Shown one piece after another: positions 31,567 through 46,052 of a stretch of 46,052 bases of DNA. The stretch spans positions 1 through 46,052 of the forward strand of contig WGNA01000001.1 in assembly GCA_016124755.1 (NCBI GenBank), in the 5' to 3' direction. The notes beneath the pieces are model-generated. The model saw nothing but the letters and a program-made list of their open reading frames with translations. It ran no database searches and was not told the origin of the DNA. This DNA comes from Bacteroidota bacterium (GTDB lineage Bacteria > Bacteroidota > Bacteroidia > NS11-12g > UBA9320). Numbering within the stretch: the first letter of the stretch is position 1; every line of letters starts with the position of its first letter. The position numbers and the translations under genes were made by a program.

Positions 31567-34281
31567 TTAATTCATCTTAACAAAGAGGTTAGAAGCTTTG
31601 TAATTCTTTCCCGAAACCGAAATGATGTAATTGCCGGCGGCAAGTTTGGATACATCAACAGAAATTCTACCGGTTCCGATAGCTGTTTCTGAAGTGTTTA
31701 ACACTACCTGACCTGAGAAGGAAGTAATTGTGATTTCCACTGCACCTGAAATTCCGGAAGGAAGTTCAACCCAGGTTTGATCTGAAGAAGGGTTCGGATA
31801 GATTTTCAACTTCTGAGTAACTTTCGCTTCAACCTTGGGAACACTGGTAAGCAGGTTATTGGTTTTAAATATTCCTCTTCCGTGTGTACCGGCAAAAAGT
31901 ACAGGTCCGGTTCTCCAAGGATTTGGACCGGTATCGTGCACTTTTTCCATTTGTCTCATCATAAATACCGGAATCAGTGGGAAGTTATCATTGTTTTCAA
32001 CCCACGTAGGAGTTGTAGCGGTTCCATTGGTGCAGGCCCAGATACCATATTCGGTACCCAAAACAATTATGTCCGGATTTTCAACACTTATTTCGGCATC
32101 ATAAACCGGAAATTGAGGAAGTGAACCCTGAATACTTCTCCAGGTTGGGTTGTCGGAAAGACCATCTTCCGTTATGTAGACATACGCCGAACTTCCATAA
32201 TTACCCATAGTTACAATAACGCGGTTCGGGTTGCTTTCATCAACTTCAATATCGGTAATAGTTCGTCCGGGAAGATTTCCTTTAACCGAAACCATAGTGA
32301 GGCTATCTGAAATTTTGTTTTCAGGAAGCGCAGAGGTATCCCAATCTGCTTTTTGAATTCCGTCGATACGATAGATGCTGGAACCGTTTAACCCTGCAAC
32401 AAATAAACTGTTTCCATCCGGAGTAATCTGCATCATGTGCGGATCTCTTCCAATGTTTGCAATTCGGAACCAACTTGGATTCGGGCTACGAACGGCATCA
32501 TTCGCCATCCATACTTCATTGTCGAGCGCAAAGAATAATTTGCTTTCTTCGGTTGTGGTGTTTTCCCACAACTGCAAGGGTGTGTTAAAGATGTGACTTG
32601 CCTGAAGCGAAGGCTCGGTTCCGTCAACAAAGTAGGCTTTAATTCTTTCGTCCCAGATGTTGGAAGCGTTTCCACCTGCATTCAACGTACGGCCAAGAGT
32701 ACCGTTCTGGCTCAGCACAAAAACAACCTGCGGGTCTATTCTGGAAATTTCACAACTGAATCCGTCACCGCCATATATAGTTACACCAGCTTGTGGGGTA
32801 CTTCCTTTTCCATTAATATAAATGGTATTGTTATCCTGAGTCCCTCCGCAAACGGCACCATCACGTCCGGCGGCAATCCGGTAGAACTGCGTGGTTTGAT
32901 ATCCGTTATTGATGGAAGTATAATTGGTAAGATCGGCGTTGGTTGTTTTGGCAATCCCGCCATCTGAGCCGATATACATCACAATTGGATTAGAAACGGT
33001 GTCAAATGCAATAACATGTTTGTCGGAATGAATTCCAACCGGGTTCAAAGGGTTGTCGTTAGTAGATCCTTTAATTCTCGGACCTGTCTTGGCGCTCCAC
33101 TCTGCCCATTCGATTCCACCGATAAAAATTCGTTCCTTGTCTCGTGGGTGAACAGCAACACACATATCGTAGGCACCCTGTGAATGTTGAATCGATGGAA
33201 TAGAGAAAGGTGCGAAAACGGCACTTGCCTGACCAACCACTTTTTCGAAAGTTACACCATTGTCTTTAGATTGAAAGATGCCAAGCAAACCGCTGGGGAC
33301 CTGAACACTTCCGGAAGTTGAACTTATCGTAACTGATCCGGTTGAAACTACATATACATAATTCGGGTCTTCAGGAGAAACCGCGATTACACTTCTGACT
33401 GTGCTGTTGGGCACACCGGTAGCTGCAGTATAGCTTGTGGAAACGGTCGGATCTGTGGAACGGAAAATTCTACCTGCATACAAAAAAACAGTACCGTTTT
33501 TATCCACTACCACGTCTTCCGCTGTTCCCCCTCTGGCCAACGTCCATTTAGTCGGATCGTTTTCTGTCATTATATACAAGCCGAGATTTGTTGCAGCGAA
33601 AACGATGTTTTTGGTCGGGTGCTGAACCAGTTTATTAACAAAAGTGAAGTTGCCGGTTGTTGTGATGCGATCAAAGGTTTTTCCGTCATCCGTACTGCGG
33701 TAAATACCGTCGCCTGTGAACCCCGGGGTATAGGCTTCCTGCCCGCCACTTCCTGTAAAACTTTCACCAGTTCCGAAAAAGATATCTCCGTTGGCTGTCT
33801 GGCAAATCGAGGAAATCGCCATACTGCTGAATTTATCATTGATCGGATACCACGATCCCCCTTTGTTCGTGGATTTGAAAAGTCCACCGTTCACTCCGCC
33901 GGCGTAAAGAACCGATGGATTGTTTCTGTCAACGAGAATTGCGCGTGTTCTGCCACCAATGTTGTCGGGACCAGCACTTTCCCAGTTGAGAGGAAAAGAT
34001 GATTTATAATTTCTTCGGTGAAATTCGATCTGGTTTAAAGCATTACGAACGTCGGCAGGATCAACTTCTCCTGTGAGCACATTGGCGCGGAGGGAATTAA
34101 TATATTCAGCCGCACCTTTAAAGGTTTCGAACTCCTCCTCTTCTTCGGAGAGTTGTTCAGTTTTGTTGTTTGCTCGTGGACTGTAGTGATCGCTTTTTCC
34201 GGAGTTAATAGTTCTGGAGAGTAAAACCCCTCCGATTGCCATGGTGCCAATGGCAACTCCCAGGTAAAGATTCTTATTCAT
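31567..34281 (-). CDS. Secreted beta-propeller protein with T9SS sorting domain
   Basis: Protein of 904 aa, exported by a hydrophobic N-terminus (LYLGVAIGTMAIGGVLL) without an obvious cleavage site. An acidic stretch (about 45-50) and a helical segment precede a large propeller built from sortilin/BNR-like repeats: SVLYAGGVNGGLFKSTNKGGSW, IFFGTGESF, DGIYRSTDDGKTF and NYVYVVSTG. The last 75 aa form a type A C-terminal sorting domain (KLKIYPNPSSD ... LAAGNYIISVSG), so it is a substrate of the type IX system. The ligand is unknown. It has a very good promoter and its own terminator. Confidence 0.9.
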   Translation of the reverse strand: MNKNLYLGVAIGTMAIGGVLLSRTINSGKSDHYSPRANNKTEQLSEEEEEFETFKGAAEYINSLRANVLTGEVDPADVRNALNQIEFHRRNYKSSFPLNWESAGPDNIGGRTRAILVDRNNPSVLYAGGVNGGLFKSTNKGGSWYPINDKFSSMAISSICQTANGDIFFGTGESFTGSGGQEAYTPGFTGDGIYRSTDDGKTFDRITTTGNFTFVNKLVQHPTKNIVFAATNLGLYIMTENDPTKWTLARGGTAEDVVVDKNGTVFLYAGRIFRSTDPTVSTSYTAATGVPNSTVRSVIAVSPEDPNYVYVVSTGSVTISSTSGSVQVPSGLLGIFQSKDNGVTFEKVVGQASAVFAPFSIPSIQHSQGAYDMCVAVHPRDKERIFIGGIEWAEWSAKTGPRIKGSTNDNPLNPVGIHSDKHVIAFDTVSNPIVMYIGSDGGIAKTTNADLTNYTSINNGYQTTQFYRIAAGRDGAVCGGTQDNNTIYINGKGSTPQAGVTIYGGDGFSCEISRIDPQVVFVLSQNGTLGRTLNAGGNASNIWDERIKAYFVDGTEPSLQASHIFNTPLQLWENTTTEESKLFFALDNEVWMANDAVRSPNPSWFRIANIGRDPHMMQITPDGNSLFVAGLNGSSIYRIDGIQKADWDTSALPENKISDSLTMVSVKGNLPGRTITDIEVDESNPNRVIVTMGNYGSSAYVYITEDGLSDNPTWRSIQGSLPQFPVYDAEISVENPDIIVLGTEYGIWACTNGTATTPTWVENNDNFPLIPVFMMRQMEKVHDTGPNPWRTGPVLFAGTHGRGIFKTNNLLTSVPKVEAKVTQKLKIYPNPSSDQTWVELPSGISGAVEITITSFSGQVVLNTSETAIGTGRISVDVSKLAAGNYIISVSGKNYKASNLFVKMN

Positions 34282-40901: not shown

Positions 40902-41363
40902 TCAATCTTCAAAGAGCGTGTACACGATGTCGGTATAATACGTTCCGGCTTCCATTGAAACATCCATTCCCTCCACCTTATATTGCAGATCTATGTTGTT
41001 GAGCTTTTCGTAACCCGTTAAAAAAGTTGAATTGAGGTTATTAATTAAAATGTAATTCCAGCCTCCGTTTGCGAAACCTTTTCCATCTCCGCTGCTGGTT
41101 CGGCGAACATATATTTTAACCTGACTGTCCCAGTTCACATCGTTCTTACTCACCATTACTGTCCAATATGCATTCTTCGTAAGTTTCTTAATGTCGAGAT
41201 TAACTTTATCAGTGGATTCGGCTTCCAGGTCAAAATCTCCTCCGGGTTCAATTCGAATCTGATCAAAAGAAAAACTAACAGATCCTTGTATCCGGATTTC
41301 CTGTGCTCTTGATTCTAGTTGAGCCATTAAAATAAATAATAGAGATAGCGTAATTATTTTCAT
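40902..41363 (-). CDS. Small secreted pilin-subunit-like protein (third subunit)
   Basis: Secreted protein of 153 aa with signal peptide MKIITLSLLFILMAQLESRAQ. The mature part is all beta in pattern and ends with GTYYTDIVYTLFED, a GTYxDxVxYTL strand similar to the final strand of spore coat U-type fimbrial subunits. The Cys-free body (QIRIEPGGDFDLEAE, YWTVMVSKNDVNWDSQ) matches no family that I recognise. It is the last gene of the putative assembly operon, 2 bases after the second subunit gene. A tip or base subunit, or an accessory protein, would fit. Confidence 0.55.
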   Translation of the reverse strand: MKIITLSLLFILMAQLESRAQEIRIQGSVSFSFDQIRIEPGGDFDLEAESTDKVNLDIKKLTKNAYWTVMVSKNDVNWDSQVKIYVRRTSSGDGKGFANGGWNYILINNLNSTFLTGYEKLNNIDLQYKVEGMDVSMEAGTYYTDIVYTLFED

Positions 41364-41365
41364 GA

Positions 41366-42064
41366 TTAATCCGAGATAGTGTAAGTGACCGTAATAAAGG
41401 TGTCGGGTTCTTTAAATTCTAATTTATTAATATCAACCAGAATTAATTTATACGTTAATCTGTGTCCGTAATTTTTGCCTTTTCCCGTTGAAGCCCCGCC
41501 AATATTTGAAATTAATGTTTGTTGTTTATCACTCAATCGAATAGTTGTCGATGGTTTGCCGCATCGCCCCTTCCCGGTCTTGGTTTCTTCAGCCGTTAAT
41601 TCGATCGCCATTCCGTTGGGAATCGAGCCGGAAGTTACCTGAACCATCAGCTTTTTCTGCCCATTTTTATTTTTTAAGGTTGAGGAATAATTAATCCATG
41701 TGTTGCTATTGATATTATTTCCATCAGTCTGATTGAATTCATCTCCGGCGCGTTCCGGAAGCGTTATTTCAAGTTTAATAACTTCATTCGCCGGAACGAT
41801 AGACAACAAAGACATTTCGGGAATAGTGAGTGACAACTGATGATCGTCGTCGTCCCAATTGTGCTGAGCATTTAATTTTAATACAGAAACCAATATGAAG
41901 GTTATCGTTATTCCGAAGCTGATCAGATTGTTGATTTGTAAAATACCGCGCAGCTTCGAATACCCGCCTGTGAGTTTTATATTCAAGGGTTGCGGGCGAG
42001 ATATACCCCAGCCAAATTTTAGTTTCCAATAATTCATCTGTTGAGGATATGTTAATTTTTTCAT
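41366..42064 (-). CDS. Pilin-subunit-like protein (second subunit)
   Basis: Secreted protein of 232 aa with an unusually long N-region before the hydrophobic core (LISFGITITFILVSVLKLNAQ, about 46-66). The mature part starts HNWDDDDHQLSLTIPEM, is beta-rich and ends FITVTYTISD. Its last 85 residues align clearly with the protein cut by the window end: IPNGM/PGGM, TLISNIGGASTGKGKNYGH against TVISGIGSCYTGDGANNGH, and VTYTISD against ILYTISN. They are therefore paralogous subunits. The start overlaps the usher-like stop (ATGA), supporting ATG at 42064 despite the long N-region. Confidence 0.6.
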   Translation of the reverse strand: MKKLTYPQQMNYWKLKFGWGISRPQPLNIKLTGGYSKLRGILQINNLISFGITITFILVSVLKLNAQHNWDDDDHQLSLTIPEMSLLSIVPANEVIKLEITLPERAGDEFNQTDGNNINSNTWINYSSTLKNKNGQKKLMVQVTSGSIPNGMAIELTAEETKTGKGRCGKPSTTIRLSDKQQTLISNIGGASTGKGKNYGHRLTYKLILVDINKLEFKEPDTFITVTYTISD

Positions 42065-44754
42065 TCGCCTCCGATTTTTATAGGTGTTTGCTGAAGGAAT
42101 TTAATCTGTCTCACTTTCGGTTGAATAGTTAATAATACTTCGGTAGTTCCATCCGGTGAAACCATTACAGTTTCTTCACCTACTTTAATAATAAACTGAT
42201 CTTTCCAATAGGTGGGAACGAGTCGTATTTTCCATTCGCCGGGCCGAAGTGAACCAAAGAGAAATTCTCCTTCCGAATTGGTCTGAGTGAGAAATTGTTC
42301 AGTGCCGTTTGATGCTTCAACAATCACTCTTGGCAGCGTAACATTTTCTTTAGAAGACTGAATGGTTTTAACTTTTAACATTTCAACTTTGCCTTTTACA
42401 GATCCGCTGCGGGTCATTTTAAAAGTGATAAAAGAAGTCATATCCGGCTGAACAACTACAGTGATAGGCATTGTGGTGTCGGGCATATCCCGAACTTCTA
42501 CAGATCTTTTATCAATAAATAACTGATGTTCACCTGGACGAATATTATTAAATTTAAAATTACCGGTTTCATCTGTGGTTACCAGTTGGCCATCCATCAT
42601 AAGAACGATTTTGCTGATGGAATTTACACCGCCGTTTAAGATCTGGCCTTTAACCGAACCAAGAGATAACATTTTCTTCAGAGGAACCCCTATTTTAAAT
42701 GAATATGCCGCATTAAAATACCAGTCGCGCCGAATAGTGGGCTGATGCAGAATTCCGTAGTTAGCAGCAACATTCAGCCGGTGAGATTCTTTAATCTGAT
42801 ACGAAAAGGCCATGTTCATTAAATTCCGGTCGTTGTACAAATCTTCTACAAGGTAATTGTTCTGAAATTCAAATTCGAGACTGAGTTTTTGGTGTAACCT
42901 CCAACTTATATCCATTCCGTAAAGGAAATATTGAAATCTGGATTCCGTAAATCGTATGTTATTCAGATATTGAATAAATGCGTTAATAGTAAATTTTCCA
43001 TTGGGCGTATAGGTCGCCTGCGTTTGTGCATCGAATCCAAATGCTGTTTGGTGCGTGGAGTCTGCTATCAGTAGGTTTCGGGTAATTCCGCCTTCACTCA
43101 AAAAACGGCCACTCCAGTGCCCCGAGCGATATGTGCTGGCAAATCTCAAACGTCGTTCTTCGTAATCAAATCGCTTGTCACTTAGTCTGTCGACTTTCTG
43201 ACGATACAAAGCCAGAAGTTGCAGATTCCAGGATTTTGTAAAACGACCTACCAAACCACTGTTCAGATAAATTGAATAAGGAGCCGCACTGTAAACGGTG
43301 TCGAGATGAGGACTTTCGTTGGTCATGTTTCCACCAAGCTGAATTCCGATTTTATGAAAATTATATCCAAGATTTCCATTCAGATATAATGAATTGTTGT
43401 AATACCCTTTAAAATTCTGATCGGCATACAAACCGGAACCGGATACTTTTAATCTTTCAAAATCATAGGATCCCGAAAATGAATAGGCGTTTCCCTGTTT
43501 CCCGGTTCCGAAGCTTCGGGATAACTCGGTGCTAAAAGACCATTTGTTAAAATCGCTCCACGACATCTGAACCGAACTGAGATTTAGATAACCCGAATCG
43601 TGCAAATCATTAACAATAGAATTAATACGGTACGTGTATTTACGCTTAGTTTCATAAATAGCATAACCGGAGATCTGGCGGTCGATATCCGGTTGAAGAA
43701 GTGGCCGGTTGTAATATGATCCTATTTTTAATCCGGGCAATACAACGGCATTAATTTGCAATCCCGAACCAAAGCGGTAATTTTCGGTCAGATTACTTAA
43801 ACTAAAAGTTTTTTCACCTACAAATACATCGAATTTTTTGTTGTAATACTGAACGTATTTCTGTGCGAAGTTTCCAAGCCTCGTGACTCTCACACTACCG
43901 GGTCCGCGGTATTCAAATATCAGATTGTGCTTTTTGTTGGGGTCGAGAGAGCCTTTTCCGGTCACCTGAATCTGATAGGTATTTAACTTTTGTTCCCCGT
44001 TTGAGTATCGTCGTATATAACTGCTGTTCACATAAATCGGAAACCGGAAATACGGATCTATTTTTTTGGTTTTGGTCGGGTATATTCTAATGATTTCCTG
44101 ATCAGAAAAAACACGATCGATACTGAGCACATGTGCCGAAAGATCGATTGCTTTATCATCAATTCTGAATAATGTTTTATCCGGAATTAATTCGACTTCC
44201 ACAAACGCGCTACTGTCGGGAGGAATATTTAATTGTGCAGCACCCGGAATCTTACAATTACGGCTGAAAATGGTCATTAATTCACGGTCGTTTCCGTGGT
44301 TGGAAATAATAAACTGAGCTCGCACCGTGTCGTCTGATCTAACGAAAGTGGGTCTCGAAATCAAATCCACATTTATATCCGTTCGACGAGGAACTTCAAA
44401 AATGATTTTACTCGAAGTGATTGTCTCACCTTTTTTGAGCAATGAAAATTCAAGTTCATAATTTCCGGCTTTTGCGTGGTTGGGAACCGAAACCGGAATC
44501 AGAATATTTCGGGTTGAGTTGGGTAAAACTGTGATACTTGAAGTAAAGACCAGCGCCTTTAAGGGAGAAGGAATTTTCCTGGAAAAATTAAGGGTAACCG
44601 TATCGTCACCCTGATTAACCACATTGTAAACTATGGTTTGCGTACTTCCGGTTTCAACCGGACCTTTTGGGAGGTTGGTTAGTTCAGCCTTAATCTGTGA
44701 TCGTGAAATATGCGCTGAGCACATCAACACAATCAAAAATAGTAAAGGCCTCAT
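42061..44754 (-). CDS. Usher-like outer-membrane protein with Ig, barrel and plug-like domains
   Basis: Secreted protein of 897 aa from ATG 44754; a TTG seven codons earlier is less likely. After the signal peptide (LLFLIVLMCSAHISRS) come two NEW3/CARDB-like Ig domains (about 24-122 and 125-220). A region of about 235-693 follows, rich in alternating strands (YSFSGSYDFERLKVSGSGLY, RFASTYRSGHWSGRFLSEGG), as in a large outer-membrane barrel. Two transthyretin- or CarboxypepD_reg-like domains close it (699-748, GSVKGQILNGG...TDETGNFKFNNIRPGEH, and 784-847, LRPGEWKIRL). The segment FDVFVGEKTFSLSNLTENYRFGSGL recalls the G(D/E)-S-L region of fimbrial ushers. Order and neighbours suggest an outer-membrane assembly platform; direct FimD homology is not visible to me. 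Confidence 0.6.
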   Translation of the reverse strand: MRPLLFLIVLMCSAHISRSQIKAELTNLPKGPVETGSTQTIVYNVVNQGDDTVTLNFSRKIPSPLKALVFTSSITVLPNSTRNILIPVSVPNHAKAGNYELEFSLLKKGETITSSKIIFEVPRRTDINVDLISRPTFVRSDDTVRAQFIISNHGNDRELMTIFSRNCKIPGAAQLNIPPDSSAFVEVELIPDKTLFRIDDKAIDLSAHVLSIDRVFSDQEIIRIYPTKTKKIDPYFRFPIYVNSSYIRRYSNGEQKLNTYQIQVTGKGSLDPNKKHNLIFEYRGPGSVRVTRLGNFAQKYVQYYNKKFDVFVGEKTFSLSNLTENYRFGSGLQINAVVLPGLKIGSYYNRPLLQPDIDRQISGYAIYETKRKYTYRINSIVNDLHDSGYLNLSSVQMSWSDFNKWSFSTELSRSFGTGKQGNAYSFSGSYDFERLKVSGSGLYADQNFKGYYNNSLYLNGNLGYNFHKIGIQLGGNMTNESPHLDTVYSAAPYSIYLNSGLVGRFTKSWNLQLLALYRQKVDRLSDKRFDYEERRLRFASTYRSGHWSGRFLSEGGITRNLLIADSTHQTAFGFDAQTQATYTPNGKFTINAFIQYLNNIRFTESRFQYFLYGMDISWRLHQKLSLEFEFQNNYLVEDLYNDRNLMNMAFSYQIKESHRLNVAANYGILHQPTIRRDWYFNAAYSFKIGVPLKKMLSLGSVKGQILNGGVNSISKIVLMMDGQLVTTDETGNFKFNNIRPGEHQLFIDKRSVEVRDMPDTTMPITVVVQPDMTSFITFKMTRSGSVKGKVEMLKVKTIQSSKENVTLPRVIVEASNGTEQFLTQTNSEGEFLFGSLRPGEWKIRLVPTYWKDQFIIKVGEETVMVSPDGTTEVLLTIQPKVRQIKFLQQTPIKIGGE

Positions 44755-44781
44755 TCTTCCGGTAATCCACCCCAATTAAAT

Positions 44782-45579
44782 TTACTGGTTTAATTCCGGA
44801 ACATCGAGTTGAACTTCCAGACCGAAGATACTTTCGTCTCCGCAGTCGGCAACCAGAACTCCGCTGTATGTACCCGCAGGAATGTCTCCCATTGGAAGTT
44901 CAAATAATTTGCAATAACCCGGATATACTTTTTGATACGGGAGTTCTTTTCTGGCAACCTGATTTCCGCCGGCATCATACAATTCAAGAATAACAATAGG
45001 TTTCATCATCAGATTACCTGTATTGTTTATTCCGATTTTCAAAATTTTAGAACCTTCTGTGGTGTCCAATTTCAATCCCTGAAATTCGAGTTGTTTGATG
45101 GCACCGGCTTCATAGGAACCAATAATTTGAATCGCATAACGAACCAAAGCATTTACTTTTACTCCGACAGTTGGGAGCGAGGTGTCGAGATCTTCAACTT
45201 CTTCCACCATAATTACGCCCCAGTAACTGCCAACTTGTTCAACACCTGTTTCCGGTTTCATGGAATAGGTAATATTTACGGTTTGACCCGCAGTCATAAG
45301 AATTTCGTTATCGGAAATAGTGAGCCATTTGGCATTGCACCGTCCCCGATCGAGATTCAGATCAAACTCTGTTTCGCCTTTACAATTGTGAATTACATCG
45401 GTTTTGTAAATTCTTGCTCTTTTGGTTTTATCACCGGTATTGCGAACAACAATATTACCCTGAACGGCAGCCGTACCCGCGAGTTTGTGCTCATGTGAAA
45501 GACCATTCACCACAACAATACTTGCCTGAGCAGAAATGAACGCTGCAAAAGCGATCATCACAGATAATAGTTTTTTCAT
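44782..45579 (-). CDS. Periplasmic chaperone-like Ig-fold protein
   Basis: Secreted protein of 265 aa from ATG 45579 (MKKLLSVMIAFAAFISAQA, cut before Ser); an in-frame ATG at 45603 is possible, and the longer frame has no sense before the signal peptide. The mature part reads as two Ig-like domains. The first (IVVVNGLSHEHKL...NIVVRNTGDKTKRARIYKTDV...VNITYSMKPETGVEQVGSYWGVIMVEE) follows the layout of PapD-like N-domains. The second (LKIGINNTGNLMMKPIVILELYDAGGNQ...IPAGTYSGVLVAD) is a second beta sandwich. It lies directly upstream of the usher-like gene with a 27-base gap. Chaperone function is inferred from fold and order only. Confidence 0.55.
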   Translation of the reverse strand: MKKLLSVMIAFAAFISAQASIVVVNGLSHEHKLAGTAAVQGNIVVRNTGDKTKRARIYKTDVIHNCKGETEFDLNLDRGRCNAKWLTISDNEILMTAGQTVNITYSMKPETGVEQVGSYWGVIMVEEVEDLDTSLPTVGVKVNALVRYAIQIIGSYEAGAIKQLEFQGLKLDTTEGSKILKIGINNTGNLMMKPIVILELYDAGGNQVARKELPYQKVYPGYCKLFELPMGDIPAGTYSGVLVADCGDESIFGLEVQLDVPELNQ

Positions 45580-45694
45580 ACTTGAATTCTTCTTTGATTT
45601 CATTTGAGAAGTTACGGATACCGAATACTCAAAACAAGGTAAATCCGCTATGTTCATCTTAATTTTTTGTGCCTGAAAGGCGGACAATGTTCAT

Positions 45695-45725
45695 TAAAAA
45701 AAACAGGGCGGAAGAACCGCCCTGT
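45695..45725 (-). terminator. Terminator between first subunit and chaperone-like gene
   Basis: On the minus strand ACAGGGCGG (45725-45717) pairs with CCGCCCTGT (45711-45703), a nine-base stem with a five-base loop, followed by eight or nine T. It sits about 60 bases after the first subunit stop and would make that transcript the abundant one. Confidence 0.85.
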
Positions 45726-45782
45726 CTGAACTACTTATAGTTTTTGTTGAGTTTTGAATGTATTAATTCCTTTAATCCCGAA

Positions 45783-46052
45783 TTAGTTGTTTGAGATTGT
45801 ATAAAGGATTGTGAGGGTAGTGGCATCATCGAAATCGATGTTCGCATAGCTACCTGCAGTTGGATCGAGTTCCAAAGAGTAGTACAGGTTATGACCGTTG
45901 TTTGCACCGTCTCCGGTATAGCAACTTCCAATACCACTGATTACAGTTTGATTGGATCCGGTTAAGGTTTTTTGTCCGGCAGTAGAACCAACCGTTCCGT
46001 CACCGTTGCCGGCATCAGAAGCAGCAGTTACTTTCAGGAGCATACCACCCGG
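45783..46052 (-). CDS. Pilin-subunit-like protein (first subunit, partial)
   Basis: C-terminal 89 residues of a gene whose start lies beyond the window end; the frame is open to the last base (PGGM...). It is homologous over the whole visible part to the second subunit (41366-42064) and ends TTLTILYTISNN. Gly/Ala/Thr/Ser-rich sequence (TAASDAGNGDGTVGSTAGQ) and one Cys (GIGSCYTG) fit a secreted structural subunit. As the first gene before a strong terminator it is the likely major subunit. Confidence 0.65.
   Translation of the reverse strand, partial: PGGMLLKVTAASDAGNGDGTVGSTAGQKTLTGSNQTVISGIGSCYTGDGANNGHNLYYSLELDPTAGSYANIDFDDATTLTILYTISNN

Follow-up and report, generated by a model that had tools for sequence, protein, structure and literature searches.

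Organisation of the five-gene cluster on contig C11

The window, i.e. the whole stretch of DNA analysed here, is the entire contig C11 (46,052 bp) of the source genome and carries a cluster of five genes at its end, on the minus strand: three encode subunit-like proteins (S1, S2 and S3), and between S1 and S2 lie the genes for a chaperone-like protein and an usher-like outer-membrane protein (OMP). All five ORFs of the preliminary description were found in place on this strand, with the following features, listed in the direction of transcription.

45783–46052, minus strand: subunit 1 (S1), major-subunit-like, 3′ part only, ORF open at its 5′ end
45701–45727, minus strand: stem-loop plus T-tail, terminator-like, between S1 and the chaperone gene (single site)
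44782–45579, minus strand: chaperone-like protein, 265 aa, ATG at 45579, signal peptide and two Ig-like domains, WxLIP/PapD-like
42061–44775, minus strand: usher-like OMP, 904 aa, listed start TTG, alternative ATG at 44754
44080–44694, minus strand: OMP residues 28–232, N-terminal pair of all-beta domains, NEW3/Ig-like, where ushers have their N-terminal domain
42691–44037, minus strand: OMP residues 247–695, 26 predicted barrel strands in succession without an inserted plug (AF2 model)
42376–42660, minus strand: OMP residues 706–800, C-terminal domain 1, transthyretin/CarboxypepD_reg-like
42118–42324, minus strand: OMP residues 818–886, C-terminal domain 2, CarboxypepD_reg-like
41366–42064, minus strand: subunit 2 (S2), 232 aa, paralogue of S1
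40902–41363, minus strand: subunit 3 (S3), 153 aa, distant paralogue with a pilin-resembling C-terminal strand, GTYYTDIVYTL

The start of S1 is missing because the contig, and with it the window, ends there. The stop codon of the OMP gene and the start codon of S2 overlap (ATGA). S2 of the window has ~45 extra residues ahead of the signal peptide that are absent from all relatives, and given this extension its start codon may be misassigned. The stem-loop and T-tail at 45701–45727 correspond to the terminator noted earlier between subunit and chaperone genes and are possibly an attenuator; in the region as a whole, terminator-like sites are no more frequent than in shuffled sequences.

Searched as single sequences against Pfam and NCBIfam, the five proteins gave no match to PapD, usher or pilin families, in agreement with the earlier remark that no such signature was recognisable. 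The main significant match was CarboxypepD_reg at the C-terminus of the OMP (5e-8), with NEW3 matched weakly at its N-terminus. Type IX secretion (T9SS) had been described as absent: the five proteins indeed carry no sorting domain in these databases (Por_Secre_tail or CHU_C), but T9SS signals are abundant in the source genome, with 150 Por_Secre_tail matches. One such protein, of surface type and with Por_Secre_tail (1.8e-10) as its T9SS sorting domain, is encoded elsewhere in the window (31567–34281, minus strand); that it shares its length of 904 aa with the usher-like OMP is a coincidence.

Conservation of the cluster and dispersal of S1-like genes

Among the 38 genomes of the window's GTDB family, the chaperone and OMP genes are found in the identical six, never one without the other, and S1-like genes in these six plus one more. 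The order S1-chaperone-OMP-S2-S3 is preserved in four loci of the family, L013, L014, L015 and L016 (in the last with the S1 end sitting at the contig start), and in four loci from three other families (L082–L085), while L017 retains chaperone-OMP-S2-S3 with an S1-like gene only as a broken remnant. The named relatives are uncultured Bacteroidia MAGs. Broken copies in these relatives comprise a chaperone gene with two in-frame stops (G032, L016), an usher gene interrupted by one stop (G036, L022/L013) and the S1-like remnant with two stops (G009, L017:1025–1285), reflecting either decay or assembly error.

Across the phylum, the chaperone is present in 30 of the 395 genomes sampled and lies adjacent to an OMP gene in 29/35 loci inspected, the OMP being downstream on the same strand in 28 of the 35, mostly ≤60 bp away, and upstream in L103. 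The six exceptions comprise five loci of one genus, g74, assigned to the Chlorobiaceae on the basis of its FMO protein, plus L112; here (L099, L100, L101, L113 and L114 in g74; L112) the chaperone homologues are orphans, with no usher-like gene found alongside. A search at class level recovered near-full-length matches from roughly a dozen of 396 genomes, and in seven of ten weaker, more distant loci inspected a chaperone, two subunits and an usher are clustered. In the same search 287 of the 396 genomes scored as positive; these were not counted, the matches being mostly short and confined to the common C-terminal transthyretin-like domain. No relatives were found in the viral contigs searched. 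Conservation of the gene order in other genomes, proposed earlier as a check, is thus evident both in the family and beyond it, and since the order is kept in relatives and chaperone-OMP adjacency across the phylum, the cluster is a conserved functional unit.

The chaperone and OMP genes are each single-copy in the source genome (G000), which contains twelve S1-like matches, distributed over contigs C3, C6, C7, C11, C15, C17, C22, C28 and C31 (L211–L218), with three in tandem on C6 and two on C11. Half of them (6/12) are at contig ends, and three such ends (C3, C28 and C17) are 98% identical to each other. C22 opens within an S1 5′ end, beside an acyltransferase gene, and the same gene flanks S1 in the relative G036, so that C22 probably adjoins the window, with the assembly broken inside S1. 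Tandem and dispersed S1-like copies are likewise seen in relatives. As the genome has a single chaperone and a single OMP, one machine probably serves many alternative subunits. In loci of a further genus (g13: L105, L106, L108 and L109) a pilin-like gene is present in two to four copies, some near-identical, adjoining a gene for a 478-aa tip-like protein, with response-regulator-like genes nearby.

Relationships of the chaperone, the outer-membrane protein and the subunits

For profile comparisons with hhalign, proteins were grouped as window type (W), related, larger ushers from other families (R), a second type (B) that has pilin-like genes in tandem as well as a large tip-like gene and that from reading its sequences we take to be Chryseobacterium-like, and two groups, F25 and Chl (Chlorobiaceae), from operons with recognisable features of known systems. 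The OMP of L103 is of window type and was kept out of the F25 group in the W versus F25+Chl comparisons quoted below.

The W+R chaperone profile matches the Enterococcus protein EfmWxLIP1 (9i25, 9i1y) with an E-value of 2e-7, and a broader chaperone profile reaches 4e-15. The match extends over both domains, which are homologous to those of WxLIP in the same order; WxLIP, not PapD, is the closest solved relative. PapD_N was not matched by the window chaperone in the Pfam scan, while Chlorobi chaperones score above the cut-off for this family. W chaperones align with F25+Chl at 98.8% probability, and both Chl and B align with E. coli K-12 chaperones at 96.5%, whereas W against K-12 directly gives 5.8%; W chaperones are therefore tied to PapD only via intermediates. 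On this profile evidence the window chaperone is assigned to the PapD superfamily, reached through Chlorobi-type intermediates and not directly.

Strand G1 of W chaperones (V140-x-V142-x-A144-x-V146-R147-Y148) aligns with G1 of EcpB, R147 being matched to EcpB R116 and Y148 to the EcpB donor residue I117; in 20/20 W/R sequences both R147 and Y148 are invariant. The super-conserved arginine of strand F1 (Arg89 of CsuC/EcpB), described as the most characteristic feature of archaic/alternative chaperones (PMC4654587), is retained in Chlorobi chaperones and is present in F25 but shifted by one residue; in members of W and R its place is taken by Gly or Ser. The window chaperone stops after domain 2, without the C-terminal membrane helix of WxLIP. 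Strand complementation is also what AlphaFold2 predicts for WxLIP, one of whose strands completes the sandwich of WxL (PMC10599100); the logic resembles that proposed below for the window chaperone.

The AF2 model of the OMP, built from seven sequences (pLDDT 78, pTM 0.44), has two all-beta domains (residues 28–128 and 134–232), a barrel (247–695) and two C-terminal beta domains. The N-terminal pair, which also gives the NEW3-like Pfam matches, occupies the position of the usher N-terminal domain. The barrel consists of 26 long consecutive strands separated by no more than about 12 residues, and the usual usher plug is missing from the model because no domain sits between barrel strands. A barrel of more than 20 strands with a plug had been anticipated; the strand number agrees, but the plug does not. 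Similarly, the overall architecture of the preliminary description (two Ig-like domains, barrel, two C-terminal domains) is reproduced by the model except for the label of the last two, which are not plug-like but transthyretin/CarboxypepD_reg-like and lie in the position of usher CTD1/CTD2. Further C-terminal domains past the barrel are present in some usher-like proteins of the phylum (L132–L134, L089 and others), e.g. SPOR (5.5e-23) in L132 and a weak TPR match in L133.

In a Foldseek search of the PDB, ranks 1–12 for the OMP model are all FimD/PapC (best E 2.6e-15; TM-scores low, about 0.28), and the first non-usher barrel is LptD (E 3.5e-9). VIA-align gave Z 16.2 against PapC (361 residues at 5.6 Å), a score with which AlgE, OprD-type porins and TonB receptors tie, so that the barrel fold alone cannot identify an usher. 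The OMP is below the cut-off of the Pfam Usher family (PF00577), above which none of 296 genomes of the phylum scored, the E. coli control being positive. In hhalign, OMPs align over their full length between W and R (100%) and between W and B (99.9%). W against F25+Chl ushers gives 96.3% over 482 collinear columns, which take in the C-terminal domains together with the greater part of the barrel, and F25 against K-12 ushers gives 96.9%. F25 ushers carry the plug motif in the alignment with FimD and begin with a domain unlike the two Ig domains of W. The common C-terminal domains account for part of the W-usher link in sequence. Homology of the barrel itself to that of ushers is likely, though not proved, a grading that reflects the barrel-only comparisons, which were not significant (≤15%; the F25 group there still included L103). 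Domain-level hhalign of the plug and N-terminal domain did not recover its own positive controls.

By way of intermediates from the same phylum, then, PapD-type and WxLIP proteins come within reach of the chaperone profile and bona fide ushers within reach of that of the OMP, and the earlier view of a cluster built wholly from unfamiliar parts is not supported.

The subunits are mutually homologous (hhalign: S1-S2, 99.75%; S2-S3, 91.6%). By sequence comparison S1 and S2 are clear paralogues, as had been proposed, and the terminal strand of S3 resembles that of pilins. After the signal peptide, subunits start with segments such as HTVAISIPEVAIL, and their C-terminal strands read, for example, TVTYTISDN or GTYYTDIVYTL. 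For S2, AF2 gave a poor model (pLDDT 52), and subunit profiles searched against the PDB gave no solved pilin, only chance-like matches. An alternating-residue test for N-terminal donor strands was not above shuffles, and neither were DUF4402-type controls. Of 48 subunits scanned from sampled operons, six match DUF4402, none matches WxL and, save one weak FimA-like_C match (0.013), none matches the Mfa/Fim families; the lipobox cysteine is absent from the sequences here. Alongside related chaperones, operons encode either DUF4402 pilins or pilin-like proteins from near-identical genes in tandem. A ‘WTVMVS’ segment in S3 resembles the WxL domain by eye only and finds no support in any search, and WxL was rejected as a subunit relative.

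Placement of the cluster among fibre-assembly systems

In Proteobacteria the textbook fibres are chaperone-usher pili; Bacteroidota, for their part, are known to make lipoprotein (type V) fimbriae and to use T9SS. With the classical systems (FimC-FimD, PapD-PapC) the cluster shares the gene logic of pilin, chaperone, usher and minor subunits, a two-Ig chaperone, and a large barrel with a pair of beta domains C-terminal to it, with FimD/PapC as the top Foldseek matches; it differs in that its proteins lack Pfam matches to these families, in the plug-less OMP model with two N-terminal Ig domains, and in the 5.8% probability obtained for its chaperone directly against those of K-12. Archaic/alternative systems (CsuC-CsuD, EcpB-EcpC, CfaA) likewise have small subunits with a TYTxxVxYT-like terminal strand and a chaperone G1 that aligns with that of the window, R116/I117 of EcpB included, but the window type has Gly/Ser in place of the F1 arginine. 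The type V (Mfa/Fim) fimbriae of Porphyromonas are also Bacteroidota fibres for which donor-strand assembly is proposed; the sequences here, in contrast, have no lipobox cysteine and essentially no match to those families, and we know of no periplasmic chaperone or usher used by Mfa/Fim fimbriae. WxL/WxLIP proteins of Gram-positive bacteria (DUF916-DUF3324) have both chaperone domains in the same order, whereas here there is no C-terminal membrane helix, no WxL in the subunits, and an outer-membrane barrel. The described range of archaic systems is Proteobacteria, Cyanobacteria and Deinococcus-Thermus (PMC4654587). A literature search found no report of chaperone-usher systems in Bacteroidota, although most subscription papers and preprints fell outside it and absence from it is not proof.

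The conserved gene order, the co-occurrence of chaperone and OMP, the homology chains of both, the usher-like OMP model, the homology of the subunits and the G1 alignment together support the chaperone-usher-like logic proposed in the preliminary description, and the window cluster is very likely a divergent chaperone-usher pathway. It is not classed as classical, alternative or archaic because its OMP falls below the Usher cut-off, the plug is missing from the model and the F1 arginine is replaced.

Three other explanations were weighed. The Ig-like proteins might remain monomers or form a coat, exported as a surface layer or as single adhesins without donor-strand polymerisation; the low-confidence S2 model (pLDDT 52), donor-strand alternation no higher than in shuffles and the many dispersed S1-like genes, which fit a surface-protein repertoire, are all compatible with this. 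We nevertheless consider it unlikely, given that Foldseek puts ushers first, that each operon has several small homologous subunits and that sister operons in the phylum pair DUF4402 pilins with recognisable PapD_N chaperones. An independent origin, in which an OMP barrel unrelated to ushers was joined with a WxLIP-like binding protein and arrived at the same logic by convergence, seems improbable to a similar degree: the 482-column collinear alignment (96.3%) of barrel and C-terminal domains with F25+Chlorobi ushers and the adjacency of the same gene pair in both lineages argue against it, although the non-significant barrel-only comparison, the position of WxLIP rather than PapD as nearest solved relative of the chaperone, and the 26 modelled strands, versus 24, without a plug would fit.

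Also unlikely, and by a slight margin the least probable of the three, is an ordinary archaic or alternative chaperone-usher member that simple searches missed. A transitive link by homology to the archaic-type systems of Chlorobi and F25, small subunits and the pilin-like C-terminal strand would be expected of such a member; a PF00577 score below the cut-off, exceeded in 0/296 genomes, a chaperone with neither a PapD_N match nor the F1 arginine, and an OMP model with two N-terminal Ig domains and no plug would not.

In the divergent chaperone-usher pathway favoured here, subunits, which have signal peptides, would enter the periplasm through Sec. There each would be bound by the two-domain chaperone, most likely through donation of strand G1 to a subunit Ig sandwich that is incomplete, as suggested by the alignment of its G1 with that of EcpB/CsuC. 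At the usher-like barrel the chaperone would then hand over the subunit, possibly to the N-terminal Ig pair, to the C-terminal domains or to both. Subunits would polymerise by the N-terminal strand of each completing its neighbour, and the resulting surface fibre would emerge through the 26-strand barrel, with S1 as the presumed main shaft subunit and S2 and S3 as minor or tip subunits. More tentatively, the cluster could represent a separate Bacteroidota class, with a plug-less 26-strand usher in which an N-terminal Ig pair replaces both the gate and the usher N-terminal domain, a chaperone that stands between PapD and WxLIP, and a repertoire of major-subunit genes that are dispersed, recombine and can be exchanged for one another, possibly allowing surface variation.

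The overall picture is of a widespread but strongly altered chaperone-usher machine in Bacteroidota, with an exit pore that appears to be built differently and a chaperone whose relatives include surface proteins of Gram-positive bacteria. If correct, this widespread pathway would add a class of surface fibre to a major phylum and would show how an usher works without the canonical plug. It would also link PapD chaperones with Gram-positive WxLIP, and a common origin of strand-complementing chaperones would become testable.
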